This document shows, in pieces, positions 21,588 to 63,934 of a stretch of 64,000 nt of DNA. The translations under genes and the position numbers were made by a program. How positions within the stretch are numbered: position 1 is the stretch's first letter; every line of letters starts with the position of its first letter. Source of the stretch: Devosia lucknowensis (lineage in GTDB: Bacteria; Pseudomonadota; Alphaproteobacteria; Rhizobiales; Devosiaceae); NCBI RefSeq assembly GCF_900177655.1, contig NZ_FXWK01000001.1, forward strand, positions 1,550,001 to 1,614,000, in the 5' to 3' direction. The notes below the pieces were generated by a model. That model was given only the letters and a program-made list of their open reading frames with translations. It searched no databases and had not been told where the DNA came from.

Positions 21588-21603
21588 CGTACCGTACGGT
21601 ACG
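21588..21603. promoter_or_regulatory. Candidate TetR operator
   Basis: A perfect 16-bp palindrome CGTACCGTACGGTACG about 55 bp upstream of the tetR start. Its 'ACCGTACGGT' core is of the kind bound by many TetR repressors. Confidence 0.7.
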
Positions 21604-21651
21604 GTTCCAGGCAAGCGGAATCTTGTGTCTGACATCGAGCCATGTAGGAGT

Positions 21652-21705
21652 CCGCCATAATCTGCGGTTTTTTACGAATAGATCGCAAATAGCACCGCCA
21701 TAATC
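21652..21705. repeat. Pair of 11-bp direct repeats at the core/accessory junction
   Basis: CCGCCATAATC occurs at 21652-21662 and again at 21695-21705, 43 bp (about four helical turns) apart, in non-coding DNA between tetR and the first accessory gene. Confidence 0.6.
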
Positions 21706-21804
21706 CGTAAAGTGTGATTATTGGGGTATGCGTCCTGGCGGATCCGTTGGACTGCTAAGTCGAAAAAACGCCTGCGTGCATAAGAGCTTAGGGTGACAAG
21801 CGCC

Positions 21805-22197
21805 TTATTCGGGTAATTTGCTGTAGTTGCCAGCTCGCCGCTGTCTTCTTATGTGATGGATTATATTCTCGATCTCTCTCGATAGCCTGGTCTGGTCAGT
21901 GTCAGGATCGCTGGCTATCTTGATGAGCAAGTCAGCGACAACGCCGGCGCCGCCCACGTTTCTACCGCGTGGGTTAGGCCGATGTGTCCGCCGCATCTTT
22001 CCCTCGTACTCGACAGGGCCGAGCTCGGACTCGATACGCAGCAGCGCGTTCCTGACCCGAGTACTGCTGGCCCCCGTCTTCTCCATCACTGCCTTGGACA
22101 CGCCGGTCTTTTTCCCGTCTTGGGTCGCGTCGGCTAAGTCAGCCAGCACCAGCAAGTCCCCAAGGTTGAGGTTCGGCTTGAAAGTTGGTCTAGGCAT
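21805..22197 (-). CDS. Small stand-alone HTH protein (LysR-like DNA-binding head only)
   Basis: 130 residues. 'GVSKAVMEKTGASSTRVRNALLRIESELGPVEYEGKMRR' follows the shape of a LysR-type winged HTH (helix, turn, recognition helix, 'RIE..LG'), though there is no effector domain afterwards. The rest is a helical tail ('VVADLLIKIASD', 'RLSREIENIIHHIRRQRRAG'). It could be a small regulator or nucleoid/partition-type DNA-binding protein. Its start lies 66 bp from the array of palindromic sites at 22263-22593, a possible binding target. The family was not recognised with certainty. Confidence 0.6.
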   Translation of the reverse strand: MPRPTFKPNLNLGDLLVLADLADATQDGKKTGVSKAVMEKTGASSTRVRNALLRIESELGPVEYEGKMRRTHRPNPRGRNVGGAGVVADLLIKIASDPDTDQTRLSREIENIIHHIRRQRRAGNYSKLPE

Positions 22198-22262
22198 GGA
22201 TGTCCCCCGTCAGACCTAGGGTACCGCTCCCTCCCTTTCGAAATTCTTGAAGCTAAATCGCA

Positions 22263-22593
22263 TAGACGTCGACTCGGCGTCTATTCGCCCAGACTGCTGG
22301 CGAGTCGACGTCAATCCTGAGCCGTTGTTGTCGATTCGACGTCAATTTGCGCCAGCCGAGTAGTGCGCCGCCATGAACCGACCTTTTAACGTCGACTCGA
22401 CAACAATGACACCAGACTGCTGGCGACTCGACAACAGTTTGGCATATTTGTTGTCGAGTCGACGTCAATCGACATCCAGTAGATGTGGCTTGCGTGGAAT
22501 GGCCGGTGCTGATGTCCACTCGACGTGAAAACGTGCATATTGACGTCGACTCGCCAGCAGTTTGGGCACGTTGTTGTCGATTCGACGTCAATA
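22263..22593. repeat. Regular array of nine palindromic ~22-bp sites
   Basis: Each site has a TCGA-N-TCGA core (some with one half changed to GGCGA/TCGCC) and outer arms drawn from three types: ATTGACG, TTGTTG and CTGCTGG. Centres lie at about 22273, 22304, 22336, 22396, 22426, 22459, 22519, 22549 and 22581. Spacing is 30-33 bp inside triplets and 60 bp between triplets, so the triplet recurs every 122-123 bp. It fills the ~500-bp gap between the small HTH gene and the gene at 22702. Confidence 0.9.
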
Positions 22594-22701
22594 TGTCATT
22601 CCGGGACCGTTTCCAGGGTGGCGTTGCCTCGACGAATGGTTCTCGGCGCAGGGCGTCGCTGCCCCTGCTGCCGAAGCCGGTAGGATTAAAGAAGGAAGCA
22701 G

Positions 22702-23547
22702 ATGAGAAAGTCGCCAGCACTTCGACGATCGGACTTTCTCTTAAACGCTCACCTCCAGTGCGCGTGGGACTTCGCGAGATCGCAACGGCTAGATCCATAC
22801 CTGTTCGTCGAGCGGGAGGAGCGGCTCTTCCCGCTGTTTTCGATGCACAGCGGAAGCCTGTCTTGGATCTTGAAATGGCGGCGATCCCAGTGGAGGGCGC
22901 ACGGTAGGTTCGTAGTGCCTAGCCACAAGGATTTGAGCCGACTGCACTTGGCTCTCGAAGACTTCCACCGCCTGCACAAGTTCTTGCCTACGGATCGGAG
23001 GGACATCTCTTCTTTCAAAACCTTGGACGAACTCGCCATGTGCGAATTCACCCTAGACAAGGCATCGACGACAGGGCTCAGGAAGGCTGCCCGCGAGCAG
23101 GCTTATCGAGAAAGCACTGCTCTCTATCGGGACGGTCGGTGGGCCGTCATCCAGCTCCATTCGAGAGCGGCCGCAACCTGGTGGGGCATGGGTACCCGAT
23201 GGTGCACCGCCGCCAGAGAATGCAACGGTTTCGACCGCTATGTCTCCCTCGGACCGCTTTTCGTTCTGCTTACTCCTGCCGGTAAGTTCCAAGTGCATCC
23301 AGCGACGGCCGAGCTGCGGAACGAAGCCGACGGCGAGGTTGACCTACGCACCTTGATCGCGGGCGCGCCGGCGGACTTCGCCAGCACTCTTGAACACGTC
23401 CGCCAACCTGGCGAACCATCGCTTAACTTGACCGGGGGCCTCGATGCAAACCCTATCCAACGGCCCCTCGAAGCTCCCGAGGAGAGCGATGGCGATTGGG
23501 AGCCAGGCTGGTTTTGGGAACTGGAGCCCGGCAGCGGCTTCTTCTGA
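22702..23547 (+). CDS. Hypothetical protein of accessory region
   Basis: 281 residues. The centre has a run of conserved-looking aromatic and polar residues ('TWWGMGTRWCTAARECNGFDRY' spread over residues ~160-180, then 'GPLFVLLTPAGKFQVHP' and an acidic 'EADGEVDL'). This pattern (W-C-T-A, then K-x-Q-x-H) occurs in phage and plasmid proteins of unknown function. The N-terminus is basic and the C-terminus acidic and Trp-rich. No signal peptide. It stands between the palindromic array and umuDC. Not identified further. Confidence 0.6.
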   Translation: MRKSPALRRSDFLLNAHLQCAWDFARSQRLDPYLFVEREERLFPLFSMHSGSLSWILKWRRSQWRAHGRFVVPSHKDLSRLHLALEDFHRLHKFLPTDRRDISSFKTLDELAMCEFTLDKASTTGLRKAAREQAYRESTALYRDGRWAVIQLHSRAAATWWGMGTRWCTAARECNGFDRYVSLGPLFVLLTPAGKFQVHPATAELRNEADGEVDLRTLIAGAPADFASTLEHVRQPGEPSLNLTGGLDANPIQRPLEAPEESDGDWEPGWFWELEPGSGFF

Positions 23548-44880: not shown

Positions 44881-45078
44881 ATGGGGACGGCGCGGGCTTC
44901 AGTGGTCCGCCAATCGATGATGCAGGCCATCACCGAGTTCGACCCGAACTACCAGTTCACCGAAGCCGTCGGGACGAGAGATATGCGGCCGTACCTCTGG
45001 ACTTTTTCCATGGCGCTCATGAAGATGGTGCAGGTTCCGATTGAGAGGGGGCGTAGGCCGGCATGGGCGGAAAGCTGA
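44881..45078 (+). CDS. Possible small protein upstream of the ABC-3C operon
   Basis: A 65-codon frame ('MGTARASVVRQSMMQAITEF' onward) between the zinc-ribbon gene and the first ABC-3C gene, overlapping the latter by 16 bp. It has a hydrophobic piece 'YLWTFSMALMKMVQV'. No ribosome site is visible. It could be coding or a spacer; low certainty. Confidence 0.3.
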   Translation: MGTARASVVRQSMMQAITEFDPNYQFTEAVGTRDMRPYLWTFSMALMKMVQVPIERGRRPAWAES

Positions 45079-46076
45079 CCTATCGCGACGATATCCTGCT
45101 CCTTTCCGCCAAGGCACTGGAGCGTTTCGTCCATCGCTGGGTGGCGACGCGGATGATCGACTATATGGATCATTACGAGTTTGGCGATTCCTCGGACATG
45201 GGTCGCGACGTCGGCGGCTTCGTCACCGCCGCCAGGCATGAGGGCGAGTGGGACAACTTCCAGTGCAAGAAGCTGGCGAAACCGCTCGACGCGCCGACGT
45301 TGTTCGAGGAGGTCGGCAAGATCCTCCACTTCGCGGCCGAAGGCCACTTCACCGCCCCGCGCAAATACTTCTTCGTGGCGCCCAAAGGCTTCAACCGCAG
45401 CGCCGAAGAGCTGCTGCATAACCCCGAGCGATTCCGGGCAACCATGCTGGCCGAATGGGACACGCGGTGCGCGCGAAAGATCAGGAGCAACGGCGAGCAC
45501 GTGCCGATGACGCCGGCACTGCAGCGCCTTATAAAACGGCACCCGTTCCGGAACATCGAAGGCTGGGACGTCGACAAGATGCTGGCATTGCCGGGCATGG
45601 ACTTGGTCTTGGCGGACACTTTCGGCGACGATCCCGGCCAAGCGCCCGGCGGTTCGGTACCGGTCGGCGTGGCCGACGAGGAAGCCGTCTATGTCGGACA
45701 GTTGGTCTCGATCTATTCCGACCATGCCGGCATCCCGTTCGCCGATGCCGACGCGGTGATGGACCACCCCGAACACGGCATGCATCTGGCGATGCAGCGC
45801 CGCCGTTACTACGACACGGACGCCTTCCGCCGACATTTCCGCGACAATCTTGATCCGGAGCATCTGCGGCACTTCAACGACGAGGTGCACGCCGGCGTCT
45901 TCGAGACATACGCGGCAACCAGCGGGTTCGACCGGCTGACGCAGGTCATGGACCGCGCCGGCCGGCTTGACGTCACCGGAATCTTCGGCCGGCATCGCCG
46001 GGCATCGGTGCAGGTGCGACAGGGCACCTGCCACCATCTCGCCAACGAGGGGGTGATGCCATGGAAGAAGCCTTGA
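45063..46076 (+). CDS. ABC-3C effector-type component with PD-(D/E)xK-like nuclease region
   Basis: 337 residues. The N-terminal third has 'SSDMGRDVGGFVT' and 'GEWDNFQCKKLAKPLD', a (D...QxK) nuclease-like pattern of the Mrr/REase fold seen in the effector subunits of three-component ABC systems. The C-terminal region ('RRRYYDTDAFRRHFRDNL') is the kind of conserved tail found in the CTD components. It overlaps the middle component by 16 bp, fixing the operon order. Proposed role: nuclease released or licensed by the ABC ATPase on sensing phage or plasmid DNA. Confidence 0.65.
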   Translation: MGGKLTYRDDILLLSAKALERFVHRWVATRMIDYMDHYEFGDSSDMGRDVGGFVTAARHEGEWDNFQCKKLAKPLDAPTLFEEVGKILHFAAEGHFTAPRKYFFVAPKGFNRSAEELLHNPERFRATMLAEWDTRCARKIRSNGEHVPMTPALQRLIKRHPFRNIEGWDVDKMLALPGMDLVLADTFGDDPGQAPGGSVPVGVADEEAVYVGQLVSIYSDHAGIPFADADAVMDHPEHGMHLAMQRRRYYDTDAFRRHFRDNLDPEHLRHFNDEVHAGVFETYAATSGFDRLTQVMDRAGRLDVTGIFGRHRRASVQVRQGTCHHLANEGVMPWKKP

Positions 46077-46552
46077 CCGAGCCCCCTCGCCTCTTCAACG
46101 GCAGCGTCGAGACCGGCGTGCGCTCCCTGCTGATCCTCGAGGCTTGCTACCCTGCGACCCTCGACATCGATACCATGTCGCTGTTCGACTATTTCGTGGT
46201 GCACACCAAGGACATCGGCGGGCCGGTAAGCTTGCACCCGGCGATCGGATCCCGCGTAGGCGAATACCATGTGCGCCGACGCGTCATCCAGGACGGCTTG
46301 AGGCTCATGCGCCGTGCCAGCCTCATCGACGTCGTCGAGGCCGAGGACGGCGTTCGCTTCACCGCGTCAGAAGACGCCCCGGCCTTCGTCAAGCTCATGG
46401 GGACCGACTACAACCGCGACCTCTTCGCGCGGTCGAAATGGCTGGCCGAGCAATGGAAATCTTCCGGCGATGAGTTCGTGAGCCGCCTGCGTGCAAGTAT
46501 CGAGAGATGGAGCCTGGAATTCGGGGAAGAAGGCGGTGCGGCCGATGCCTGA
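46061..46552 (+). CDS. ABC-3C middle component
   Basis: 163 residues. 'VRSLLILEACYPATLDIDTM' with 'LFDYFVVHTKDIGGPVSLHP' and 'RVGEYHVRRRVIQDGLRLM' matches the small middle components of three-component ABC systems, which have a winged-helix-like fold. It should link the ATPase and the effector. It overlaps genes on both sides (16 bp and 8 bp). Confidence 0.75.
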   Translation: MEEALTEPPRLFNGSVETGVRSLLILEACYPATLDIDTMSLFDYFVVHTKDIGGPVSLHPAIGSRVGEYHVRRRVIQDGLRLMRRASLIDVVEAEDGVRFTASEDAPAFVKLMGTDYNRDLFARSKWLAEQWKSSGDEFVSRLRASIERWSLEFGEEGGAADA

Positions 46553-48431
46553 ATCGTTGCGCCCGAAACTCAGGCTGGAGCACCTGACTTTCACGGGCGA
46601 CGGCCTCGAACCGGCGGGCATTGAGTTCGCGGAAGGCCTGACCATCGTCTATGGCGGCTCGAACGCAGGCAAGTCCTATTCCCTCCAGGTCCTCGACTTC
46701 ATGCTTGGCGGCAGCCCGCCGGACGTCCTGGAGCAAGGTGCCGAATACACCCGGGTGCTGCTCGGCCTCACCCTCGGCGACGGCCGGCAGGTGACGTTGG
46801 AGCGGGCGCGCAGGGGAGCCGGTTTCAAGCTATATGAGGGCTTGGCCAAGGACGGCGACGTCAGCGGCCGAGCCTCCGTCCCGCTGGCGGCAGATCACGG
46901 CAAGGGCAAGTTCGGCAGCGTCTCGGAAGTGCTTTTGGAGAGCATCGGCATCAAGGACGCCAAGATCGCCGCCACCGAGGCGGCTCAGCTGATCCCTTTC
47001 TCCATCCGGCACTTCATGCCCTATATCGCGGTGAACGAAGACCGCATGTTCACCGCGGACAGCCCGACCATCGTCAGCCCGAAGAACGGCCCTACGCTCA
47101 ACAAGAACGTCTTCCGCTTCATCCTGACCGGCCAGGACGACCGCGACGTCATCGAGGTTCCGAACGAGAAGGCGCTCAAGGCCAGCAACGACGGCAAGGT
47201 CGAACTGCTCGAGGAGATGATCGCCGACATCGACGGTCAGATCGCAGAATTCGACACCGGCACGCTCGACCAGGACATCGAGCGGCTCGGCGATCGCCTC
47301 GAGGACTTCGGCAACACCTTGGGGGATGTCCAGCAGCGCCTCGACACGGCGAGCCGGGAACGTCGCGGGTTCATGGAGACGTTGGACGCCGACCGCTTCA
47401 AGCTCGGTCAGTTGGTGGCCATGAAGGCACGGTTCCTCGAACTGCGGGACACCTACAGCACAGACATCCGCAGGCTCGAGGCGATCGAGGAAGGCGGCTT
47501 CCTGCTTCAGCGGTTCGAGAACCAGCCCTGCCCCATGTGCGGGGCCCTGCCCGGCGATCAGCACCTGCCGCACGAACTTGGCGACCTGGACCGTCAGCAT
47601 GCGGCGGCGCGGGCGGAAATCGCCAAGATCCAGCGCGATATGCGCGGTCTCGAGGCGGCATTGGCCGGTGTCGAAACGGAGCAGGCCGCCTTAAATCTCC
47701 GTATCGAGTTCGGTGCGGCGGAGGTGCGAGATCGGGAAGCCGACATCGCTCGGCTCAAGCCCCAGGAAGCGAACACCCGTCGCGATTACCAGACGCTGGC
47801 CGAGCGGCTTGCCAAACTGGAAGGCATTTCGGATCTCAGATCGCGACGGGCCGTGCTCCAGGTCAAGCGCGATGCCATTGCCGTAGCGAAGGTCGGCCGG
47901 CAGAAGGCCGACGGCTTGATGATCGGCATCGACGGCCCCACCGGCCACAAGTTCGCGCAGGTCGTCAAGGACGTGCTCACCGCCTGGGAATATCCTGGCA
48001 TCGAAGCGGTGACGTGGGACGAGAGCCGTCAGGACATCGCCATCAACGGCCGGCCGCGCAGCCAGAACGGCAAGGGCGTGAAGGCGGTGTTCCATTCCGC
48101 TTTCGCAGTCGCCGTGATGATTTACTGCCGGACCAATCGTTTGCCGCATCCAGGCTTCGTGGTGCTGGATTCGCCTTTGGTCACCTACCGCAAGCCGATC
48201 CATTACAAACGTCACGGCGATCTGGAAGCCGACGAGAAGGCGATCGCCAGCACCGCTCTAGACGTGGCCTTCTACAGGCACCTTGCAGGCTTGGGCGAAC
48301 TCGGCCAGGTCTACGTCATCGAGAACAACGACCCGCCGTCCAAGATGCCGGCAGCGGTCAAGATCGAGCGGTTCTCAGGCGAATCCGGCGATGGCCGGCA
48401 GGGCTTGTTCCCTGTTCGCCAAAAATCATGA
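46545..48431 (+). CDS. ABC-3C ATPase (SMC/Rad50-like)
   Basis: 628 residues. Walker A 'VYGGSNAGKSYSLQ' near residue 37; long coiled-coil halves around a CxxC 'QPCPMCGALPGDQH' near residue 328 that resembles a zinc hook; Walker B 'GFVVLDSPLVTYRK' near residue 537. This is the Rad50/RecN-like ATPase of the three-component ABC defence family. It probably senses DNA ends or foreign DNA and controls the nuclease subunit. ATG 46545 was chosen; the frame is open from 46491. Confidence 0.85.
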   Translation: MPESLRPKLRLEHLTFTGDGLEPAGIEFAEGLTIVYGGSNAGKSYSLQVLDFMLGGSPPDVLEQGAEYTRVLLGLTLGDGRQVTLERARRGAGFKLYEGLAKDGDVSGRASVPLAADHGKGKFGSVSEVLLESIGIKDAKIAATEAAQLIPFSIRHFMPYIAVNEDRMFTADSPTIVSPKNGPTLNKNVFRFILTGQDDRDVIEVPNEKALKASNDGKVELLEEMIADIDGQIAEFDTGTLDQDIERLGDRLEDFGNTLGDVQQRLDTASRERRGFMETLDADRFKLGQLVAMKARFLELRDTYSTDIRRLEAIEEGGFLLQRFENQPCPMCGALPGDQHLPHELGDLDRQHAAARAEIAKIQRDMRGLEAALAGVETEQAALNLRIEFGAAEVRDREADIARLKPQEANTRRDYQTLAERLAKLEGISDLRSRRAVLQVKRDAIAVAKVGRQKADGLMIGIDGPTGHKFAQVVKDVLTAWEYPGIEAVTWDESRQDIAINGRPRSQNGKGVKAVFHSAFAVAVMIYCRTNRLPHPGFVVLDSPLVTYRKPIHYKRHGDLEADEKAIASTALDVAFYRHLAGLGELGQVYVIENNDPPSKMPAAVKIERFSGESGDGRQGLFPVRQKS

Positions 48432-49257: not shown

Positions 49258-50955
49258 CTAGGAAATAGACCCAGAGCCTTCAGCCGGGTTCTTCTTAGGA
49301 ACGGCAATCCCGTATTTTGCGACCCTTCGAGCGTTTATGGGCGACTCCGAACCTATTTTCTTCAACGCCTCCTTGGCCCGGCCCATGATCGCAGTCATCG
49401 GCGGGCTCGGATTGACCACCTTGGCGAACGTGAATGCCCCGGCCAGAAGTCGTCGCAGCTGAGGGCCTTTGGCTTCTTTGAACATTTTGTAGTACTCGTC
49501 CACCGGGACAGCCGCGAGCATTACGAGATCTTCTTCGTTGAACCCATTCCGCAGCCCCTCCAATGCGCTTCGGAAATCGCGCTCGTCCGGAATGGCGTAG
49601 AGCTTTTCCGCGAATGCCTCACGCACCTCCGGCTCTGATACATTCTCTTCGAACATGTACTCGTCCAAATTCCAGAAGCTTGCCTCGTCGTCTCTGCCCT
49701 GAACGTAGAGATCGAGGAGCTCTTTGGCCTTTTCCGGTCTGCCTAATTCCTTGAAGAGCTTTATGGTGCCGTTGAGATTGGTAGGCGAAATACGCTTGAA
49801 GCTCCTTCTGAAAGAGGCCTCGATCGCGGACAAGACATCGTCTTCGTCCTCATCGAATGAGTCGTGATACAGGTCCCAAGCCTTTTCAAAAGAACCATCC
49901 TGACGCTCAGCCTCGATCGCAGCGGCGTAGCCGTCAGCATGGCGGTGTAAAGCTTCGACGTCGAAGAATCCGTCTACCGCCGCTCTCATCAGATCAAGGT
50001 CGGCCTCGTCAGCATGGCTGAATCTCAGAGCCTCGAGTACCGCGACCCAACCAAGCTCCTCCGTCGTCATCTTCTCGTTGGGGATGTAACGGTTATAGGC
50101 ACGGACAAAGGTCATCGACGGGGCCGCATCTGGATCAAGATGAGACCACGAGAACAGCGCCATGCTGAGCTTCATGCGCTCGAAAACTTCCGGATCGTAC
50201 CGCGACAGCAGCTGCCGGAGCTTTCGGAGATTGACGTCGATCTTGTGCATAATGCGGATGTTCTGAAGACCGAGGAGCCGACAGATATCCGCGGTGCTGG
50301 CCTCGATTGCAGTCTCTCCGCTCGATGCGATAGCAACGGCTTCATCCACTGTGGGGCTGAACTTCAGCGATACGTCCACGACCTTTTCCAAATAGCGATC
50401 GAAAACAGGCTTCTCGGCATCCAGCTTGTCTTCATTCAGCAGCAGCACCACCCGACAGCCCCGCTGCTCTTTCAGCAGGGAAGCCAATCCCAGCACGTCG
50501 GCAAGGTCCAAACCTTTCCCTCTACGTTCAAGGTCGTCGAAGCAGATGATCATGTTTCGAACCGAGAGAAAGGAGAGCATGGAGGTGATGCCGGAAGGTA
50601 CCAGCGTGCGGAGGACGGGAAGCCCCTCCATGAATTTGATCAATGGCCGACCATGCTTTTCGGCCTTATTGAACAAATCCGCGACTGTCGTTTCATCGGG
50701 CTGAGGTGCCGCGCCCTCCAGTGGTACCGAGCTTTCGAAGATCGCCGCCTTCAATGCGTCGAGCGAATTGACGCCGAACAGCGATACGAGTGCGTAGCGC
50801 TTGAGGCCGTTGGTTCGCTTGGCTGCGTGCTCATCCACCAAGCCCCGCCAAGTATAGGTCTTCCCTACACCCCAAGGCCCTCGGAGGCAGAGCACCGCCG
50901 GACTTGTCCCCTTGATGAAGCCATCAATCTCGGTCTTGACGTGTTCGATGCTCAT
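49258..50955 (-). CDS. KAP family P-loop NTPase
   Basis: 565 residues. Walker A 'LRGPWGVGKTYTW' near residue 26 and Walker B 'NMIICFDDLERRGKG' near residue 133, followed by 'VVLLLNEDKL'. This order and the 'FDDLER' sequence mark KAP NTPases, which are common in defence islands. The C-terminal half is helical with TPR-like repeats ('FEKAWDLYHDSFDEDEDDVL'). It converges with the HEPN gene. A partner is not evident. Confidence 0.82.
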   Translation of the reverse strand: MSIEHVKTEIDGFIKGTSPAVLCLRGPWGVGKTYTWRGLVDEHAAKRTNGLKRYALVSLFGVNSLDALKAAIFESSVPLEGAAPQPDETTVADLFNKAEKHGRPLIKFMEGLPVLRTLVPSGITSMLSFLSVRNMIICFDDLERRGKGLDLADVLGLASLLKEQRGCRVVLLLNEDKLDAEKPVFDRYLEKVVDVSLKFSPTVDEAVAIASSGETAIEASTADICRLLGLQNIRIMHKIDVNLRKLRQLLSRYDPEVFERMKLSMALFSWSHLDPDAAPSMTFVRAYNRYIPNEKMTTEELGWVAVLEALRFSHADEADLDLMRAAVDGFFDVEALHRHADGYAAAIEAERQDGSFEKAWDLYHDSFDEDEDDVLSAIEASFRRSFKRISPTNLNGTIKLFKELGRPEKAKELLDLYVQGRDDEASFWNLDEYMFEENVSEPEVREAFAEKLYAIPDERDFRSALEGLRNGFNEEDLVMLAAVPVDEYYKMFKEAKGPQLRRLLAGAFTFAKVVNPSPPMTAIMGRAKEALKKIGSESPINARRVAKYGIAVPKKNPAEGSGSIS

Positions 50956-56101: not shown

Positions 56102-56189
56102 CGCGGCCCCACCGCCCTTGATCGTCACTAAAACCCTCGACGGCCTTTACCGGCCGGCGTCGATCTCCCATGCAACGAGGTGTTCTCGC

Positions 56190-56762
56190 ATGAACGATGT
56201 CTTTCGCCTTGATTCCGACCGATCCGCCTACGCCTTTCCCTTGCCGGACGAGCGTCTTCACAGCTTCGTCGAGAACCTTCTCCACACCCGAGGACTGGAT
56301 CCCAAACCGGTGAACCGATTGCGGGACATAGGTTTAGACGACAAAGCATGCTGCAGCTTCGAGATCGACGTCGACGGCGATGCCGTCTGCCTTCTCGTGA
56401 TACCCCGCCGCTTTTCCCGCGACGCGATGACGGCGGATCATGTGCGGCGGTACGGCCGGAAGGCGGAAGCGCTCGGCCTTCGCTTCCTCGCCGTGCCCGA
56501 GACATTGCTCAGGGCCAGCGCGGCGTCCGGCCGCGACGCCGGCGCCGCGACGGCCGTGAAAGCGGACGATCGACTCCGCGTCCTCGATCATTTCCTCCGG
56601 CACGGTAGCGCCGGGCTCTTCGAGCTGGCGGCGCGTCTCGAACACGAAAACCCCGTAGCCGCGATCCTCGAACTCGACGTGGACGGCGCATTGAGCATCG
56701 ACGACGGCATACTTTCCAGCCGGAGCCGCGTCACCCTCGCCGGGAACGGAGTCCGGCCATGA
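56190..56762 (+). CDS. Hypothetical protein with degenerate TnsA-like core and C-terminal winged helix
   Basis: 190 residues. Core 'CSFEIDVDGDAVCLLVIPRR' then 'ADHVRRYGRKAEALGLRFLAVPETLL' lines up in order with the catalytic segment of the TnsA at 59843 ('LDYLAVYADGRKVGYAVKPS', 'LMGRVRTAAGFEIRIVTEKS'), but the Asp and Lys of the active site are not retained. Its end ('VLDHFLRHGSAGLFELAARL', then '..VDGALSIDDG') resembles the TnsA winged helix. Overlaps the next gene by 4 bp. Role unknown. Confidence 0.5.
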   Translation: MNDVFRLDSDRSAYAFPLPDERLHSFVENLLHTRGLDPKPVNRLRDIGLDDKACCSFEIDVDGDAVCLLVIPRRFSRDAMTADHVRRYGRKAEALGLRFLAVPETLLRASAASGRDAGAATAVKADDRLRVLDHFLRHGSAGLFELAARLEHENPVAAILELDVDGALSIDDGILSSRSRVTLAGNGVRP

Positions 56763-57082
56763 GCCGGGACTTCGACCTTACCGGTGAGACGACATGTGTG
56801 ATTGTCGACCGGCTCAGACGGTTGGCTGACGATCTGGAAAAGCTGGATCGCGGCGAGGTGCCGACGCCCGCGCAGCTCGATGCAGCCCCGCTGCTCCGCC
56901 ACTGGGTGCTCGATCGGCGCCCTAGCCTTTGCCTGCGCGGCACCGTGTACGGCCACCCCACGATCGAGGACGGCCATCAAGCGCTGACTTCGGAAATTTT
57001 CGCGATCGATCCCGGGCGCACATGGGTGCGAAGCCTTTCCCGCTTCTACGCCCTCGGCGCACCGCGACTGGAGGGACTTTGA
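56759..57082 (+). CDS. DUF6634-like hypothetical protein
   Basis: 107 residues. 'APLLRHWVLDRRPSLCLRG', 'VYGHPTIEDGHQALTSEIF' and 'WVRSLSRFYALGAP' match a short family that I recall as DUF6634 from alphaproteobacterial genomes. Overlaps the previous gene by 4 bp and is one base before the AAA+ protease gene. Function unknown. Confidence 0.6.
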   Translation: MSRDFDLTGETTCVIVDRLRRLADDLEKLDRGEVPTPAQLDAAPLLRHWVLDRRPSLCLRGTVYGHPTIEDGHQALTSEIFAIDPGRTWVRSLSRFYALGAPRLEGL

Positions 57083-57083
57083 C

Positions 57084-59003
57084 ATGAGCACCGAGCAGGC
57101 ATCCATCTTGGAGGACATCGTGGACGGTCAATACGAAGACGATGACGGCGGCTCGCGGGAGCACGCGGGCTTGATCCTGCCGCGCGTCATGCTGGAAGCC
57201 GCCGTTGGAAAACCAGGAATGAAGGAGCTGGCCGAACGGCAAGGATTCTGCGTCGTGGTCCACGCGCCCTCCGCGGATTTCGTGGCCCCGATAAGCAAGG
57301 CCATCAGGAAAGCGGGCGACTGGGCTTTCAGCTGCACTCAGACGAAAAGAAGGAAGCTCACCGACGACGATCAGGCGGTCGAGCACACCACGGTTGCCCT
57401 GGCCAGGGGGCGCCGGGTCTTTGGGGTCTCGCAGCACCCCATGGAGTTTCTGCCGCGCGCCCTCGTGTCCGCAGCGGACATGTCCTTGCGCGTACCCCAC
57501 CCCTCGCCCGAAATCATCGCCATCGTCATCAAGTCGATCACCGGCGATCTGCCGATCGACGTTCCCCATAACCTGGGCCAGGGCCTGAGCTTCGAGGAAC
57601 TGGTCGCGGGGATCCGGAAAGGGAGCACAGCCGCAGAGTGCGTCAGGAGGCTTACCGCCGGAAAGGCGGCAAGAGCTCCTGAAGTCGACCACGACGTTCC
57701 CGGCGTCGAGGATATCCACGGCATGGGCGAAGCGCGGGATTGGGCGATCGAGCTGACGCAGGACATCGCCGACTGGCGCGCCGGGACGATCTCGTTCCGG
57801 GATATCGGAAGTCCCGCGGCGCTGCTCGCGGGTCCGCCCGGGGTCGGCAAGACCACCCTGCTGAGAAGTCTGGCGAAAAGTTGCGGCCTCCCCTTGTTCA
57901 CGACTTCGGTGGGGGAATGGTTCAGCGCCGGCCCCGGCTATCTGGACTCCGTGATCAAGCAGATCGACAAGATTTTCTCCGACGCCCGGGAAGCTGCCCC
58001 GGCAATCATTTTCTTGGACGAAGTGGACGCGATTCCAAGCCGTCTTCGACTCGACAGTCGAAATGCGGACTGGTGGACGCCGGTGGTCACCCATTTCTTG
58101 ACCACTTTGGAAAGGGCGGTGACGGGCCTTGACGAACGCCTGATCGTGGTGGCGGCCACAAACCACGCCGAGGTCCTGGACCCGGCCATGATCCGGGAAG
58201 GAAGATTAAGCCGGATCGTCACCGTACGGCCTCCAGACGACGTCGGGATGCGGGGTATCCTTCGACAACACCTAGGCGATGACCTTTCGGGCGAAGACTT
58301 GTCGGACGCCGCGCGTCTGGGAGCCGGCAACACCGGTGCGACGGCCGTAGGCTGGGTGCGCCAGGCAAGGCGAACCGCCCGCCTGGCGGGCAGGCCGATG
58401 ACCATGGAAGACCTGATGGGCGCGATCGCCCCTGCCGACACGCGTACGGGAAAGGATCTTTGGCGCACCGCGCTCCACGAAGCAGGGCACGCGGTGGCAG
58501 CACATGTCCTGGACGTGGGCCATGTCGAGGTGGTGACGCTGGTGCGACGCGGCGACATTGGAGGTTTCGTCAAACTCGACGGGCGGGATCTGGGGTCGAC
58601 GCGCGATGACATCGAGGGAAACGTCGTCCAATGCCTTGCCGGCCGGGCGGCGGAGGAGATCCTCCTCGGCGAACCGGGTTCCGGTGCCGGTGGGGCTGCG
58701 TATAGCGACCTGGCCCGCGCGACCGGATATGTCGGCTTGGTGCATTTCGGCGCCGGACTCGGTGACGAGATGGTTTTCCGGGCGGACATGGACAACATGC
58801 CCGCGCTGATCGCTTCCGATCCGAAACTTGCGAAGATTGTGGATCGGGATCTGCAGCGGCTCTATGCCGAGGCACTGCAGCTGATGTCGACGCACTCGGA
58901 AACGGTTCGAAGCTTGGCGGAGGAACTCGTAGAAAAGCGCCAGGTCGGCGCGGAACGTTTCCTCGAGATCATGCGTCATCGAACGCCGGTGTCCTCCCGA
59001 TGA
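57084..59003 (+). CDS. FtsH-like AAA+ ATPase with M41 metalloprotease domain
   Basis: 639 residues. A ~230-residue N-terminal region with no membrane helix replaces the FtsH anchor. Then an AAA+ domain: Walker A 'AGPPGVGKTTLLRSL' near residue 250, Walker B 'AIIFLDEVDAIPSR' near 308, and sensor region 'VVAATNHAEVLDPAMIREGR'. The M41 protease follows: 'ALHEAGHAVAAHVL' (HExxH) near 464 and the third metal ligand in 'AAYSDLARATGYVGLV' near 539. A soluble, probably hexameric protease that unfolds and degrades proteins. Encoded in a cluster next to Tn7-like genes. Confidence 0.85.
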   Translation: MSTEQASILEDIVDGQYEDDDGGSREHAGLILPRVMLEAAVGKPGMKELAERQGFCVVVHAPSADFVAPISKAIRKAGDWAFSCTQTKRRKLTDDDQAVEHTTVALARGRRVFGVSQHPMEFLPRALVSAADMSLRVPHPSPEIIAIVIKSITGDLPIDVPHNLGQGLSFEELVAGIRKGSTAAECVRRLTAGKAARAPEVDHDVPGVEDIHGMGEARDWAIELTQDIADWRAGTISFRDIGSPAALLAGPPGVGKTTLLRSLAKSCGLPLFTTSVGEWFSAGPGYLDSVIKQIDKIFSDAREAAPAIIFLDEVDAIPSRLRLDSRNADWWTPVVTHFLTTLERAVTGLDERLIVVAATNHAEVLDPAMIREGRLSRIVTVRPPDDVGMRGILRQHLGDDLSGEDLSDAARLGAGNTGATAVGWVRQARRTARLAGRPMTMEDLMGAIAPADTRTGKDLWRTALHEAGHAVAAHVLDVGHVEVVTLVRRGDIGGFVKLDGRDLGSTRDDIEGNVVQCLAGRAAEEILLGEPGSGAGGAAYSDLARATGYVGLVHFGAGLGDEMVFRADMDNMPALIASDPKLAKIVDRDLQRLYAEALQLMSTHSETVRSLAEELVEKRQVGAERFLEIMRHRTPVSSR

Positions 59004-59842: not shown

Positions 59843-60670
59843 ATGAAGTACCAGATTATCACTTCGCCCGACGCCGCCCCGAAGCTCGACCTCGGCCGTA
59901 TCGGCGGAAACGCCCTGCCCCGTTTCTCCAAATCTCGCGCCCCGCACTACGCCATTCCTCCCGACGTCTTGGCGGCGATGACGGCCATGAACCTGGCCCC
60001 GCCTTTCGTGCCTCCGTCTCAGAGCCGGGCGACGCGGTACATCGCCCTTCGCGGCCGCGGCTCCCAGAGGGGAGCGACGCACGTCAAGTACGGCGGTCTC
60101 GAGAGGATGGTGGTGTTCGAGTCCCTGCTCGAGCTTCACACCCTCCACATCCTGCTCAGCGACACATCGCTTATCGATATTTGGGATCAGCCGCCGCCGA
60201 TCCCGTTGCGAAACCGCGCCGGAAAGAAGACCACGCATACGCTCGACTACCTCGCGGTCTATGCGGACGGGCGCAAGGTCGGCTACGCCGTCAAACCCTC
60301 GCGGAAGGTCTTCGACGAGCACGGAAATCCGACCGAGTTCGTCGAACTGATGGGCCGTGTACGCACGGCCGCAGGGTTCGAGATCCGGATCGTCACCGAG
60401 AAAAGCTTCAGCCGGTCCCAGGTCCAGGACGCACGCCTTATGCATCGCTGGTCGCGGCAATCCGATCCCGAGGCGGACGCAGTCGTGCGCGATATCGTCC
60501 GGTCGCTGCAGGGAAGCTACCCGGTGCGCACGATCAAGGATCTGTCCGGTCTCAAAGGTCGCGCTTTCGGCGCCGTCGTCCGCGCGTACCGGGACGGATT
60601 GTTGACTAAGGCAGACGGCAAGCGCCTCCACGTCGACAGCATGGTGAGGACCGTACGCGATGCGGACTAA
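59843..60670 (+). CDS. tnsA: TnsA-like transposon endonuclease
   Basis: 275 residues. Catalytic residues of the TnsA restriction-enzyme-like fold are visible in order: Glu in 'VVFESLLELHTLHILL' near residue 92, Asp in 'HTLDYLAVYADG' near 133, Lys in 'VGYAVKPSRK' near 152. The C-terminal winged helix ('YPVRTIKDLSGLKGRAFGAV') contacts TnsC in Tn7. TnsA nicks the 5' ends of the element so that the transposon is cut out. It is the first of four coupled genes. A 11-bp overlap leads into tnsB. Confidence 0.9.
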   Translation: MKYQIITSPDAAPKLDLGRIGGNALPRFSKSRAPHYAIPPDVLAAMTAMNLAPPFVPPSQSRATRYIALRGRGSQRGATHVKYGGLERMVVFESLLELHTLHILLSDTSLIDIWDQPPPIPLRNRAGKKTTHTLDYLAVYADGRKVGYAVKPSRKVFDEHGNPTEFVELMGRVRTAAGFEIRIVTEKSFSRSQVQDARLMHRWSRQSDPEADAVVRDIVRSLQGSYPVRTIKDLSGLKGRAFGAVVRAYRDGLLTKADGKRLHVDSMVRTVRDAD

Positions 60671-62849
60671 AGGTCACTCTCAACGGAAGCCATGGCAGCG
60701 CCTGGACGTCCATGATGGCCTGGTGATCGAGGGCGTCGAGTATCGAGTCGCAAGGAGCGATCGTGACGGGCAGCTTCTCTACGAAACCGCCCGACCCGCG
60801 GTCCGCGCCTTCCACGACCACCAGGCGTGGGATGTCATCCGCACCCAGATCGGGTTCAAACACGAGAAGGGGTTGCACGGCCCCAACGCGCCCAAGATCC
60901 GCGACATCGCCGGCGTGGAGTTCATCAGCGACATCCCCAGCGAGCAGATCCGACGCATGCGTTGGCTCGAAGACCTTGTCATCGACCTTGAACGCCGTCG
61001 GCGGGCCGGCGAGACGACGCTGGACCCCACTCTGGTCCAGGCGCTTCTCGACGGCGAGATGGGGCAGTCGGCGTTGCAGAAGTTGCGGACGCGGCAGTTG
61101 GGGGAAAAATCTCCCGGGGGACGGCCCTTCGTCGTCTACGACATCTCCGCCACCGCCCTGCTAAAGAAGAGACGAGACTACCTCGCCCGTGGCTTCGCCG
61201 CCTTGCGGGACGGTCGCCACCGGTCCGGCAACAGAGAGGCGAAACTCCAGCCCGAAGTCGTCGCGATCATCGCGGTCCACCTCGCGCAATCCATCTCAAA
61301 CCCGTCGGCGACCGACAGGAGCATCCACGACGATATCCAAGACGAAATCGAGGAACGGAACGAGAAGACGATCCTGCGCAGGGCGCAAGCCGAGGCCGAG
61401 AATTCGTTCTTCGACGCCGAACTGCTGAGAGTTCCCGACATCAAAACCATCCGGGCAGCGCGCAGCAAGCTCGACCCGTTCCACAGGGAAATCGGCAGGC
61501 GCGGAGTGGACGTGGCGGTGCAACTGTACCCGGCGGTCCGCGGCAAGCCCGATACCCTGGGGCCGCTCGATAGAGTCGAATACGACGAAAGCATCGTCGA
61601 CGCGATCACGCTCCTTACGGAAAGCGGAGCATGGGTCTTCCTGACCGACGATGAGAAGAAGCTCGTCAAGCGCGTCCGCATGGTCATCGGCGTCGCGATC
61701 TGCGTGGCGACACGCTGCATCGTGGGCATGCGAATCTACCGAGCCGGGAACGGCGATGAGACCGTGGCGACGTTCCGCATGATCGGCGAGGACAAGACCA
61801 ACTACCTGCCACCGGAATTGAGAGGCAAGCTCAGTTGGCACCAACACGGTGGCATCGGCGCCGTCGTCCTCGACCAAGGAGCCCCCAACATTTCCGACGA
61901 GTCGCGAACGCTACTGGCAAACCTGGGGGTGCCGATCGTCATCGCCGAGGCCGGCCGACCCTCCCATCGCGGCGTCGGAGAGCGGATTTTCAGGACTTTC
62001 GGCTCGTACATCTACTCTTTCATCGACGCGCGCACGGGCTCAAACGTCGTCGATCGCCGCAGGTATCGGCCAGAGGGCCGCGCCTCTCTGACGATCGACG
62101 AACTTTGGAAGATGTTGGCGATCGGCGTGGTGGGCGTTTATCAGCAGACCCCCCACCAGGAACTGGACGGCCGGACGCCGGCAGACGAGTGGGAGCGCCT
62201 GATCGATGATTACGGCGTCAACGCCCTGCCCGATCCCAACCGGAAACGGGTCAGCTACGGCCGTCACTCCACCAGGCCGGTCACGCGGTACGGTGTCCCC
62301 TTCGCAGGTCTGAGCTACACCAACCCGCTGATCGACTACCATTACCTGCACGGCCACGGTCCGCTCGAAATCGCCGGTGACACTGAAGACCTGGGCGCGA
62401 TTTCCGTCCGCATCGGCGATACGTGGTACGAGGCGCCGTGCACCGATCCCGACATGCGGGGCGTGAGGTGGTTGGATTGGAAGGCAGCATGCGCCCCCCA
62501 GAAAGACCTCGCCAACGATAACGCCGCCAAGAGGCGTGGAGCACGCCGGCTGGCGAAGCAAGCCATGACGCAGATCCAGGAACATGCCCGCAGTCGTGCG
62601 GACACGCCGCCCGAAATCATCACCGCCGAGATGATCGAGCGGGCGGAACGGCAGATCTTCGGGAAGTACCAGCATGCCGAGGAAGACCAGCCGTTCAAGG
62701 GCGGCGAGCTGGGCGTCGCCGTGGAACCCTACAACGGACCGGATAGCGGCGCCTCGAACGGGGTGGCCGAATCCAAGCCGGTCGCGAAGCCGGTTCGCAG
62801 GGCGCGATCCCGCAAGGGCACGGGTACGACATGGAGCATGGGATCATGA
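60660..62849 (+). CDS. tnsB: TnsB-like DDE transposase
   Basis: 729 residues. The integrase catalytic core shows the DDE triad: Asp in 'DRVEYDESIVDA' near residue 306, Asp in 'AVVLDQGAPNIS' near 404 and Glu in 'HRGVGERIFRTF' near 440. A C-terminal Mu/TnsB beta-barrel follows ('ISVRIGDTWYEAP'). N-terminal HTH segments bind the element ends. It joins transposon 3' ends to target DNA. Overlaps tnsA and tnsC. Confidence 0.92.
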   Translation: MRTKGHSQRKPWQRLDVHDGLVIEGVEYRVARSDRDGQLLYETARPAVRAFHDHQAWDVIRTQIGFKHEKGLHGPNAPKIRDIAGVEFISDIPSEQIRRMRWLEDLVIDLERRRRAGETTLDPTLVQALLDGEMGQSALQKLRTRQLGEKSPGGRPFVVYDISATALLKKRRDYLARGFAALRDGRHRSGNREAKLQPEVVAIIAVHLAQSISNPSATDRSIHDDIQDEIEERNEKTILRRAQAEAENSFFDAELLRVPDIKTIRAARSKLDPFHREIGRRGVDVAVQLYPAVRGKPDTLGPLDRVEYDESIVDAITLLTESGAWVFLTDDEKKLVKRVRMVIGVAICVATRCIVGMRIYRAGNGDETVATFRMIGEDKTNYLPPELRGKLSWHQHGGIGAVVLDQGAPNISDESRTLLANLGVPIVIAEAGRPSHRGVGERIFRTFGSYIYSFIDARTGSNVVDRRRYRPEGRASLTIDELWKMLAIGVVGVYQQTPHQELDGRTPADEWERLIDDYGVNALPDPNRKRVSYGRHSTRPVTRYGVPFAGLSYTNPLIDYHYLHGHGPLEIAGDTEDLGAISVRIGDTWYEAPCTDPDMRGVRWLDWKAACAPQKDLANDNAAKRRGARRLAKQAMTQIQEHARSRADTPPEIITAEMIERAERQIFGKYQHAEEDQPFKGGELGVAVEPYNGPDSGASNGVAESKPVAKPVRRARSRKGTGTTWSMGS

Positions 62850-63934
62850 GTGACGAACGGGACATCGAGCTCGACGACTGGGATCCGCAGGCGCTTGACG
62901 GGGAGCATGGCATTGACGTCGCAGACGACGACGGGGCTGCGTTCGAGGACGAGGTGGATGCCAAGTTACTGGCGCTTCGTTCGCTCTACGTGGCGTCCGG
63001 TCGCGACGCCGTCCTCGCCCGCAATTTCGAACGGCTGCTGAAGGAGCGGGATTCCCCGAATCCTATACGGCGTTGGGCAGGTCTTCTGCTCATGGCTCCG
63101 TCCGGCGCCGGAAAGACCAGGATGATGAGTCGCTTTCTGGCCGCCCACCCGCGGGTGCATGACTTCGCAGGAGATGACAGCAACTTCATCGGCATCGACG
63201 TTCCGTCGCCCGTCACCAACAAGTCGCTCGGCCTGGCCGTCCTCAGGAGCATGTATCCCCAGCAGCGGACGGTTCCGCCTACGGGTCCGAAGGCTAACAT
63301 GGACTCGGCGAGCCGCCTGAGCGACATCTGGGACGAAGCCCGCAAGATCTCGGCGGACCTCGATATCCTTGGCCTGTGGATCGACGAGGCACACGACCTC
63401 GCCAACGGCGGCCCCAACACGATGACGATCCTCCGCGCGAGCCTCAAGAGGTGGATGGCGCACGAGCACCGACCGCTGTTGATCCTCAGCGGCACCCCAG
63501 AGCTGGCGGCTTTGTTCGAGACACGGGAGTTTCGGAGGCGTTTCCTCGTCGTTGAGTCGCCGGAGCTGACGGCGGACGCCGATACCGCACACCTGCGCCG
63601 GATGATCGCCCGCTATGCACGCGAGGTCGACCTGGGGATCGACAGCTCGCTGGAGGACTTTATGCCTCGGCTGATCCATGCGGGCACGCGGCAGATCGGG
63701 TGGACCTTGGATCTGGTTTTGGAGGCGATCCGCGTCGCCCTCCTGGAATCAGCCGACCGGCTCGCCATCGAACATTTCGCCGACGCCTATTCGGACATCA
63801 GCGGTTGCGACGCCGACAACAATCCGTTCACCGCCGACGACTGGTCCGGCATCGACACCGTTCTCCACCGGGACCGGGATTTCGTGGAGCCGAAACGACC
63901 TCGCCGGCGCCGCAGGAAGGACACTCCATGGTAA
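62846..63934 (+). CDS. tnsC: TnsC/TniB-like AAA+ ATPase
   Basis: 362 residues. Walker A 'LMAPSGAGKTRMM' near residue 84, Walker B 'LGLWIDEAHDLA' near 176, then 'PLLILSGTPELA'. This is the TnsC/TniB regulator that forms filaments on target DNA and connects the target selector with TnsAB. ATG 62846 overlaps the tnsB stop by 4 bp (ATGA). The C-terminus is very basic ('RPRRRRRKD'). Confidence 0.92.
   Translation: MSDERDIELDDWDPQALDGEHGIDVADDDGAAFEDEVDAKLLALRSLYVASGRDAVLARNFERLLKERDSPNPIRRWAGLLLMAPSGAGKTRMMSRFLAAHPRVHDFAGDDSNFIGIDVPSPVTNKSLGLAVLRSMYPQQRTVPPTGPKANMDSASRLSDIWDEARKISADLDILGLWIDEAHDLANGGPNTMTILRASLKRWMAHEHRPLLILSGTPELAALFETREFRRRFLVVESPELTADADTAHLRRMIARYAREVDLGIDSSLEDFMPRLIHAGTRQIGWTLDLVLEAIRVALLESADRLAIEHFADAYSDISGCDADNNPFTADDWSGIDTVLHRDRDFVEPKRPRRRRRKDTPW

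Follow-up and report, generated by a model that had tools for sequence, protein, structure and literature searches.

The array and its neighbouring genes

The region analysed (the window, i.e. the whole 64,000-bp stretch of Devosia lucknowensis DNA, to which positions refer) contains a gene for a 130-aa helix-turn-helix (HTH)-like protein (21805..22197, minus strand) and, divergent from it, a gene for a 281-aa protein (22702..23547, plus strand). Between them lies an array of nine 17-bp inverted repeats (22265-22589), in agreement with the nine palindromes claimed in a preliminary description of this DNA. From left to right, and without assigned strand, the sites read GACGTC-GACTC-GGCGTC (site 1, 22265..22281), GCTGGC-GAGTC-GACGTC (site 2, 22296..22312), GTTGTC-GATTC-GACGTC (site 3, 22327..22343), AACGTC-GACTC-GACAAC (site 4, 22388..22404), GCTGGC-GACTC-GACAAC (site 5, 22419..22435), GTTGTC-GAGTC-GACGTC (site 6, 22450..22466), GATGTC-CACTC-GACGTG (site 7, 22511..22527, the most diverged of the nine), GACGTC-GACTC-GCCAGC (site 8, 22542..22558) and GTTGTC-GATTC-GACGTC (site 9, 22573..22589). 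Their centres, at 22273, 22304, 22335, 22396, 22427, 22458, 22519, 22550 and 22581, are spaced by exactly 31, 31, 61, 31, 31, 61, 31 and 31 bp. The triplet pattern and the 123-bp unit noted earlier thus hold, the first figures (30-33 bp within triplets, 60 bp between them, a period of 122-123 bp) having been slightly loose.

On a 16-point score made of two arms G[ATC]YGKC and a GANTC spacer, the nine sites reached 14 to 16 and two extra weak matches, at 22284 and 22628, scored 12. No score above 14 occurred in the other 63,539 bp of the window, where eight matches scored 14, 33 scored 13 and 204 scored 12. The array is present in a single copy in its genome (3.71 Mb). The exact core TCGANTCGA occurred seven times in the window, against 2.7 expected by shuffling. 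It centres four of the nine sites, as had been proposed for all of them (TCGA-N-TCGA), while the other five lack the exact form. The 123-bp period corresponds to a tandem repeat of a diverged unit, present at 22290, 22413 and 22536; the first and third copies each share 77% identity with the second. This suggests that the three-site unit arose as tandem copies that later diverged; the triplets are therefore not independent observations, and a single unit serves as independent evidence for phasing.

Three types of half-site, A (GACGTC), B (GTTGTC) and C (GCTGGC), can be distinguished when aligned on the dyad. All three fit a single degenerate half-site, which gives GNYGKC-N5-GMCRNC for the whole site, the 5-bp spacer being GANTC in eight of the nine. 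The mixture of half-sites reported earlier is real, but its three types collapse into one, and the statement that no class with mixed half-sites is known was overstated for the same reason. Among relatives (see below), common halves were GACGTC, GATGTC and GATGGC. In 25 non-overlapping sites scoring at least 11, taken from seven of the twelve loci (L018, L020, L022, L025 and L027 were dropped as alike), the 50 halves had TG at positions 3 and 5 in 22 cases, CT in 15, TT in 11, CG in one and CC in one. Three of the four combinations of these positions recur across lineages and the fourth, CG, is rare; only this scarcity is informative, since the scoring gives preference to Y and K there. Preferred mixed pairs of half-sites were also considered and rejected, pair counts resembling random pairing as judged by eye.

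The 130-aa protein, the presumed binder of the array, was characterised by sequence searches. It had no family match in Pfam, NCBIfam, PHROGs or PADLOC, and its only Pfam match at E<=1 was a sub-threshold one to Hc1. The gene had first been called LysR-like. This kinship was not confirmed and was set aside: HTH_1 (PF00126) was not matched at E<=1, and hhalign comparison of the HTH family with 12 LysR heads taken from the same genome gave a probability of 1.4%, albeit in the expected register, with 0.2% for an ArsR control and 3.5% for the unrelated 281-aa family. Likewise, no WYL domain (Pfam at E<=1, NCBIfam) and no MerR HTH domain (Pfam at E<=1) were matched, and a comparison of the HTH profile with solved structures produced no convincing hit (best E 0.27). 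A scan of 21600-22760 for sigma-70-like promoters returned none, against 0.6 expected. The HTH reading frame opens just four codons above its ATG, and an antisense ORF (22253-22798) spans the array.

The divergent 281-aa protein has no Pfam domain. Its family comprises eight database matches, including its own fragment, and the motif WWGMGTRWCT is invariant in nine aligned sequences; its best hit among solved structures (E 0.048) was not convincing. A homologue occurs at L026 10049-10783, inside one of the defence cassettes described below (methylase-Vsr, G062 and G041).

Homologues of the HTH-like protein were found in 12 of the 136 genomes of the family, the present one included. At least 26 proteins of a large protein collection matched the HTH profile, the best 7992 candidates by shared words having been scored; those that are named come from Devosia, Pelagibacterium and one alphaproteobacterial MAG. 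An order-wide search (an even draw of 397 genomes, at most ten candidates scored in each) returned the present genome only, and this sample may not contain the other eleven carriers. The profile matched none of 58 candidate stretches of viral contigs, and no homologue of two members of the HTH family occurred in 72,556 plasmid records.

The host element and its relatives

The element that hosts the array qualifies, on its sequence features, as a Tn7-like transposon. Its left terminal inverted repeat (TIR) TGTAGGAGTCCGCCATAATCT (21643..21663, plus strand) has a perfect inverted match at 65990-66010 in window-extended coordinates (21/21, E=4.5e-6). The two 21-bp repeats delimit an element of 44.4 kb with tns genes at its right end. 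Genes resembling tnsA, tnsB and tnsC/TniB (59843..63934, plus strand) were assigned by Pfam and TnsB identity: the tnsA-like product matched PF08722 below the Pfam cut-off (E=1.3e-3), the tnsC/TniB-like one matched PF05621 (E=1.7e-9), and TnsB, with no Pfam match, was 23.5% identical to the TnsB of genome G062 over 217 aa (E=6e-11). A tniQ-like ORF, assigned by position and by eye only, runs to 65739, past the window end. Subterminal repeats CCGCCATAATC at 21652 and 21695 (21652..21705, plus strand) are candidate TnsB sites and are unlike the array. The array is located 0.6-0.95 kb in from the left end, and sites of its kind were not detected at the right one. The flanks of the element, AGCCA and AGCCC, compared as a possible 5-bp target duplication, are identical at four of five positions. 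Joined flanks, i.e. an empty site, were found in none of 74 other genomes of the genus, 66 of which matched one flank, nearly always the left.

Cargo recognised by eye includes arsenic, copper and other metal-related genes, together with an S24/UmuD-like gene, a UmuC-like gene, a Lamassu-type ABC-3C system (45063..48431, plus strand; CTD6 protein 3.1e-26, LmuB 1.5e-160) and a KAP-type NTPase. The KAP-type gene (49258-50955) adjoins the Lamassu-type genes, has a GC content of about 0.56, below that of its surroundings, and may be additional defence cargo. An FtsH-like AAA and M41 protease is encoded at 56118-59003 and also in loci L038, L040, L041, L043/L044 and L025, with tblastn matches in the loci of G036, G040, G127, G118 and G062; in L038 and in the present element the gene is preceded by similar small genes (by eye). 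It is possibly a recurrent component of these Tn7-like elements.

In seven of the twelve genomes (G032, G036, G039, G041, G062, G127 and the present one) tnsB lay on the HTH contig at a distance of 25-49 kb, this distance being 31-33 kb in G039, G041 and G062. In G036, G032 and G127 the HTH gene was flanked on both sides by a different end sequence, present as inverted copies, and tnsB was situated at the far end. Wherever both element ends were mapped, the HTH gene occupied the end opposite tnsABC. Elements of relatives gave rve and TniB matches, and TniQ matches in G036 and G127. With the TnsB of G036 as a query, no match was obtained in G040 or G118 and a weak, distant one in G060; matches in G020 and G058 were on a contig other than that of the HTH gene, and the present TnsB was missed. 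Over part of its length, the present TnsB shows about 20% identity to those of the relatives. The different end sequences and TnsB types beside the HTH gene indicate that the HTH module rides several Tn7-like lineages. End-like sequences, partly short matches, were also present in three genomes devoid of the HTH gene (G024, G044 and G108). For the G062 element, the search for TIRs returned only 12-bp chance matches.

The end sequence, adjacent to a tRNA-Met gene, was 5.0-6.8 kb away from the HTH gene in G036, G032, G040, G127 and G118, and 28 kb away in G060; in G062 a tRNA-Met gene lies about 11.5 kb from the HTH gene. The end repeats of relatives, ATCGACTCA...TTTTGGTCG (L017 12980-13108, L022 15027-15111, L024 2677-2752), abut the 3' end of tRNA-Met and share the string TCGACTC with the array, probably by coincidence. 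Further tRNA-Met (CAT) genes were recorded at L045 4078-4153, on the cassette side in G062, and at L068 14072-14147, at an end copy in G058. Since tRNA-Met stands beside several elements, it looks like their common target; the present element adjoins a tetR-like gene instead. Rfam models matched only tRNAs in the window and four loci.

Sites and defence cassettes at homologous loci

Related inverted repeats were present upstream of all twelve HTH homologues. When GAYGKC halves were required to agree at 11 or more of 12 positions, 30 sites were counted in the 12 x 600 bp upstream of the HTH genes, near-identical genomes being treated separately, against eight in 171,209 bp of sequence from these loci; at 12 of 12 positions, nine were upstream and none in the surrounding 171,209 bp. 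Only one to three sites reached 11/12 in G020, G039, G040, G127 and G118. G062 and G041 counted zero in this upstream tally because an over-long open frame covers their sites. When the conserved start codon is taken as reference, these sites make up a separate ladder with 21-bp steps, in which seven sites score at least 10 and one more was recognised by eye. This ladder is itself an open frame (L026 7602-8291). It seems to have been taken in annotation for a repetitive N-terminus of the HTH protein and is included in database proteins P0023 (219 aa) and P0025 (169 aa). The start codon of such annotations is probably misplaced.

The pattern GNYGKCGANTCGMCRNC had 63 matches in the 136 genomes, 13 of them in HTH loci (summed by hand). 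The other 50 were fewer than the 67 obtained for a reversed control, and closely spaced matches occurred at HTH loci only (by hand). Longer stretches of three genomes (G036, G127 and G062, about 202 kb in all) gave 10 matches of 11 or 12 at the HTH gene and 19 away from it. Two of these 19, both in G127, were perfect in their arms, none had the GANTC spacer, and one 11/12 match stood at the tnsB start of G062 (1342599). These 19 indicate that arms alone are unspecific and that clusters are specific. Within the present element, 12/12 arm matches with a GANTC spacer were confined to 22296-22589, and five others had unrelated spacers. The association of array and HTH gene suggested earlier was thus upheld: repeats accompany every homologue, the strict pattern stays at control level elsewhere in the 136 genomes, and instead of an array scattered at random with no linked gene, the off-locus matches were unclustered. 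The neighbouring small gene is the likely source of the putative binder.

The sites go with the HTH gene, not with the transposase. The present element and G036 both carry GACGTC-type sites though their TnsB proteins are about 20% identical over 273 aa. G127, whose HTH protein is more divergent (read without a tree), has sites of the form GATGGC-N5-GCCATT, yet shares its end sequence with G036, the TnsB proteins being 69% identical.

Across 30 centre distances, a set including weak and overlapping sites and in which 11-bp steps follow from shared half-sites, the resultant R was 0.78 at 10.5 bp, and a scan of periods from 6 to 20 bp peaked at 10.21 bp. For 13 non-overlapping distances from six loci, with one window unit but with some tandem copies still among them, R was 0.84 at 10.3 bp; none of 20,000 random sets was as good, the coarser period grid used for these slightly favouring the observed value. 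Distances of 11, 21, 31, 32, 42, 52 and 61 bp are near multiples of the helical turn, while 15 (twice), 34, 51 and 54 bp fit poorly or loosely, as does 115 bp (poorly) in the smaller set. Site spacing varies among relatives (21, 31, 32 and 42 bp). These loci form a small and related set, and some of the sites in an array are tandem copies of one another. The earlier view of a helically phased array of protein-binding type gained support, centre distances fitting the helical turn across several lineages, with binding as a prediction.

Defence genes stand beside the HTH gene in ten of the twelve genomes and represent five distinct cassettes; one genome per pair was scanned and its partner assigned by DNA identity. 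G036 and G032 carry an OLD-like ATPase with a TOPRIM domain. G020 and G039 carry SMEK and DUF2326 ABC-3C genes, to which the scan, here of G020 only, added a CBASS cyclase with a SLATT effector. In G040 and G060, E1-E2/JAB and patatin genes with an MBL-like protein follow about 2-3 kb on, past a companion gene and an IrrE/XRE pair. G127 and G118 have LmuA/LmuB and Fic, convergent with the HTH gene, and G062 and G041 a cytosine methylase, Vsr and a HATPase protein. A set named like the Lamassu-type genes of the present element thus adjoins the HTH gene in G127, near which an IS66-like insertion was also seen (by eye). No defence gene was recognised by eye beside the HTH gene of G058. In the present element the slot is empty, with 141 bp between the HTH stop codon and the inverted repeat. 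The companion gene, of about 200-235 aa, directly follows the HTH gene in five relatives' loci (e.g. L017 8062-8670, L022 8323-9030, L021 8741-9436). Beyond it lie three different neighbourhoods, and the one companion scanned had no Pfam or PADLOC match.

Between G020 and G040, identity is 97.6% over positions -1163 to +438 relative to the HTH ORF start. Outside this segment the two are unrelated, the cassette swap breaking about 4 bp after the HTH stop codon. G040 and G060 have HTH gene and cassette in common from -100 onward, near the sites.

Possible roles and comparison with known systems

We consider it likely that the array is the operator array of the adjacent HTH-like protein, which would regulate its own gene, this gene marking a slot for defence genes; binding, repression and trigger are predicted. 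One dimer would occupy each 17-bp repeat GNYGKC-N5-GMCRNC. With centre distances close to integral numbers of helical turns, the dimers would line up along one side of the helix and might cooperate across the HTH promoter, shutting it off in a negative feedback. Read-through could extend this control to co-directional cassettes (OLD-like, ABC-3C and methylase-Vsr types), and a signal from infection or transposition would relieve repression. With the slot empty in the present genome, control by the array would concern the HTH gene and perhaps also the divergent gene of the 281-aa protein. Control of incoming defence cargo by the ladder is plausible, the cassettes being linked to it by position. 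Its simplest form fails for G127 and G118, where the HTH gene is convergent with the defence genes and cannot lead their operon. A more ambitious version, which we put forward tentatively and hold to be rather doubtful, is a docking control module: a one-sided cooperative filament on phased degenerate dyads would silence the adjoining cassette until infection, a single type of control end would be combined with many exchangeable defence systems and with various Tn7-like transposases, and a three-way half-site code would tune occupancy along the ladder.

Other roles for the array have to be weighed against the self-regulating operator. Protein and array might control transposition by acting on tns promoters or element ends, as CvkR does on its element (see below), and the presence of tnsB 25-49 kb away on the HTH contig in seven of twelve genomes, as well as the match at the tnsB start of G062, would suit this. 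We nevertheless judge it unlikely, since no GANTC-spacer site lies near tns in the present element (the five other perfect arm matches have unrelated spacers), no 11/12 match was found at the tns genes of G036, and end-like sequences, partly short matches, occur without the HTH gene in G024, G044 and G108. It is quite improbable that the array is a recombination or docking hotspot for the exchange of defence cassettes at the HTH gene: the abrupt loss of identity between G020 and G040, and the segment shared by G040 and G060 from close to the sites, invite such a reading, but ordinary homologous recombination in a conserved gene explains the same breaks, the downstream one falls at the stop codon and not within the array, and no tyrosine or serine recombinase was recognised by eye beside the HTH gene. 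The position of the array just inside the left end recalls the TnsB-binding arrays documented near Tn7-like ends (PMC8649781, available text), and end repeats of the G036 type share TCGACTC with it. That the palindromes are such transposase sites is very improbable, given that the TIR and subterminal repeats of the element are unlike them, that none was found at its right end, that sites follow the HTH gene and not the transposase, and that the HTH gene is several kilobases (28 kb in G060) from the end sequence in relatives.

Partition, replication control and a defence switch had been offered as options in the preliminary description, and the last fits best of the three because defence cassettes adjoin ten of twelve homologues. 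Phased iterated sites beside a small DNA-binding gene do look like a partition (parS/parC-like) or replication-control site. Yet the array lies inside a Tn7-like transposon on a 2.54-Mb chromosomal contig, no ParA-, ParB- or Rep-like gene was recognised by eye beside it or its homologues, plasmid records yielded no homologue of the two HTH family members searched, and the repeats of relatives go with the HTH gene, which makes this role extremely unlikely. We give equally little credit to a coding or RNA repeat, i.e. part of a longer protein or a set of RNA hairpins. The antisense ORF through the array, the open frame of the G062/G041 ladder and the two database proteins that include it speak for coding, but the HTH frame of the present genome opens just above its ATG and spacing varies among relatives; as for RNA, mixed arms would be expected to disrupt stems but are compatible with a degenerate half-site in DNA.

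The loci bear on how swapped-in defence genes are silenced until needed. At them the putative HTH regulator and its presumed operator ladder stay put while the adjoining cassettes differ, across four TnsB types as distinguished by identity. Should the ladder control the cassettes, it would constitute a general expression port for defence cargo and provide a sequence handle for new defence systems, to be sought between the HTH gene and the outer end of the element. The 281-aa WWGMGTRWCT protein and the companion gene of about 200 aa are immediate candidates.

Titles and abstract openings of the literature searched named neither the HTH protein nor the array, and no paper among them combined Devosia, Tn7-like and transposon. 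Among Tn7-like elements, subterminal repeat arrays are described, heavy-metal genes are named and defence cargo is announced by title (PMC8649781); 'HTH' and 'helix-turn-helix' occur zero times and 'regulator' once in its main text. Those are end arrays of TnsB, whereas the present array is distinct from the end repeats of its own element. According to the available text on CvkR, this MerR-type HTH protein represses a Tn7-like element (a CRISPR-associated transposon) through a palindromic operator, acts on the cas12k and tnsB promoters and is argued not to be autoregulatory (PMC9938897). Our array, by contrast, lies at the gene of the putative regulator itself.

In the parts of the RptR paper available, RptR (RMS-proximal transcriptional regulator) is an alpha-helical protein of 79 aa that binds TAGCTA; encoded by the first gene of a defence island, it represses its own promoter through three palindromic repeats, has sites upstream of many homologues and, in Gammaproteobacteria, is frequently associated with Type I RM (PMC12255303). 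The likeness is that of a small protein with palindromes upstream of its own gene, beside defence genes. Differences concern size (79 versus 130 aa), sites (TAGCTA versus 17-bp sites in up to nine phased copies) and context (Type I RM in Gammaproteobacteria versus diverse cassettes in Tn7-like elements of Devosia and kin). TAGCTA in its exact form was not seen by eye upstream of the present gene, which leaves it outside the RptR site definition of TAGCTA-type 6-bp palindromes in the 100 bp upstream. BrxR, as presented in the accessible part of its description, is a WYL-domain repressor acting on inverted repeats with 11-bp arms and a 5-bp spacer near its own gene, with two boxes in its island, and 48% of its homologues are co-localised with diverse defence systems (PMC9122601). 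The 5-bp spacer and the varied defence systems alongside are shared with our loci, while the WYL domain of BrxR had no match in the 130-aa protein. The 130-aa protein is also much smaller than BrxR. By analogy, the HTH-like protein and its array would work in the manner of RptR and BrxR, yet they display the defining features of neither.
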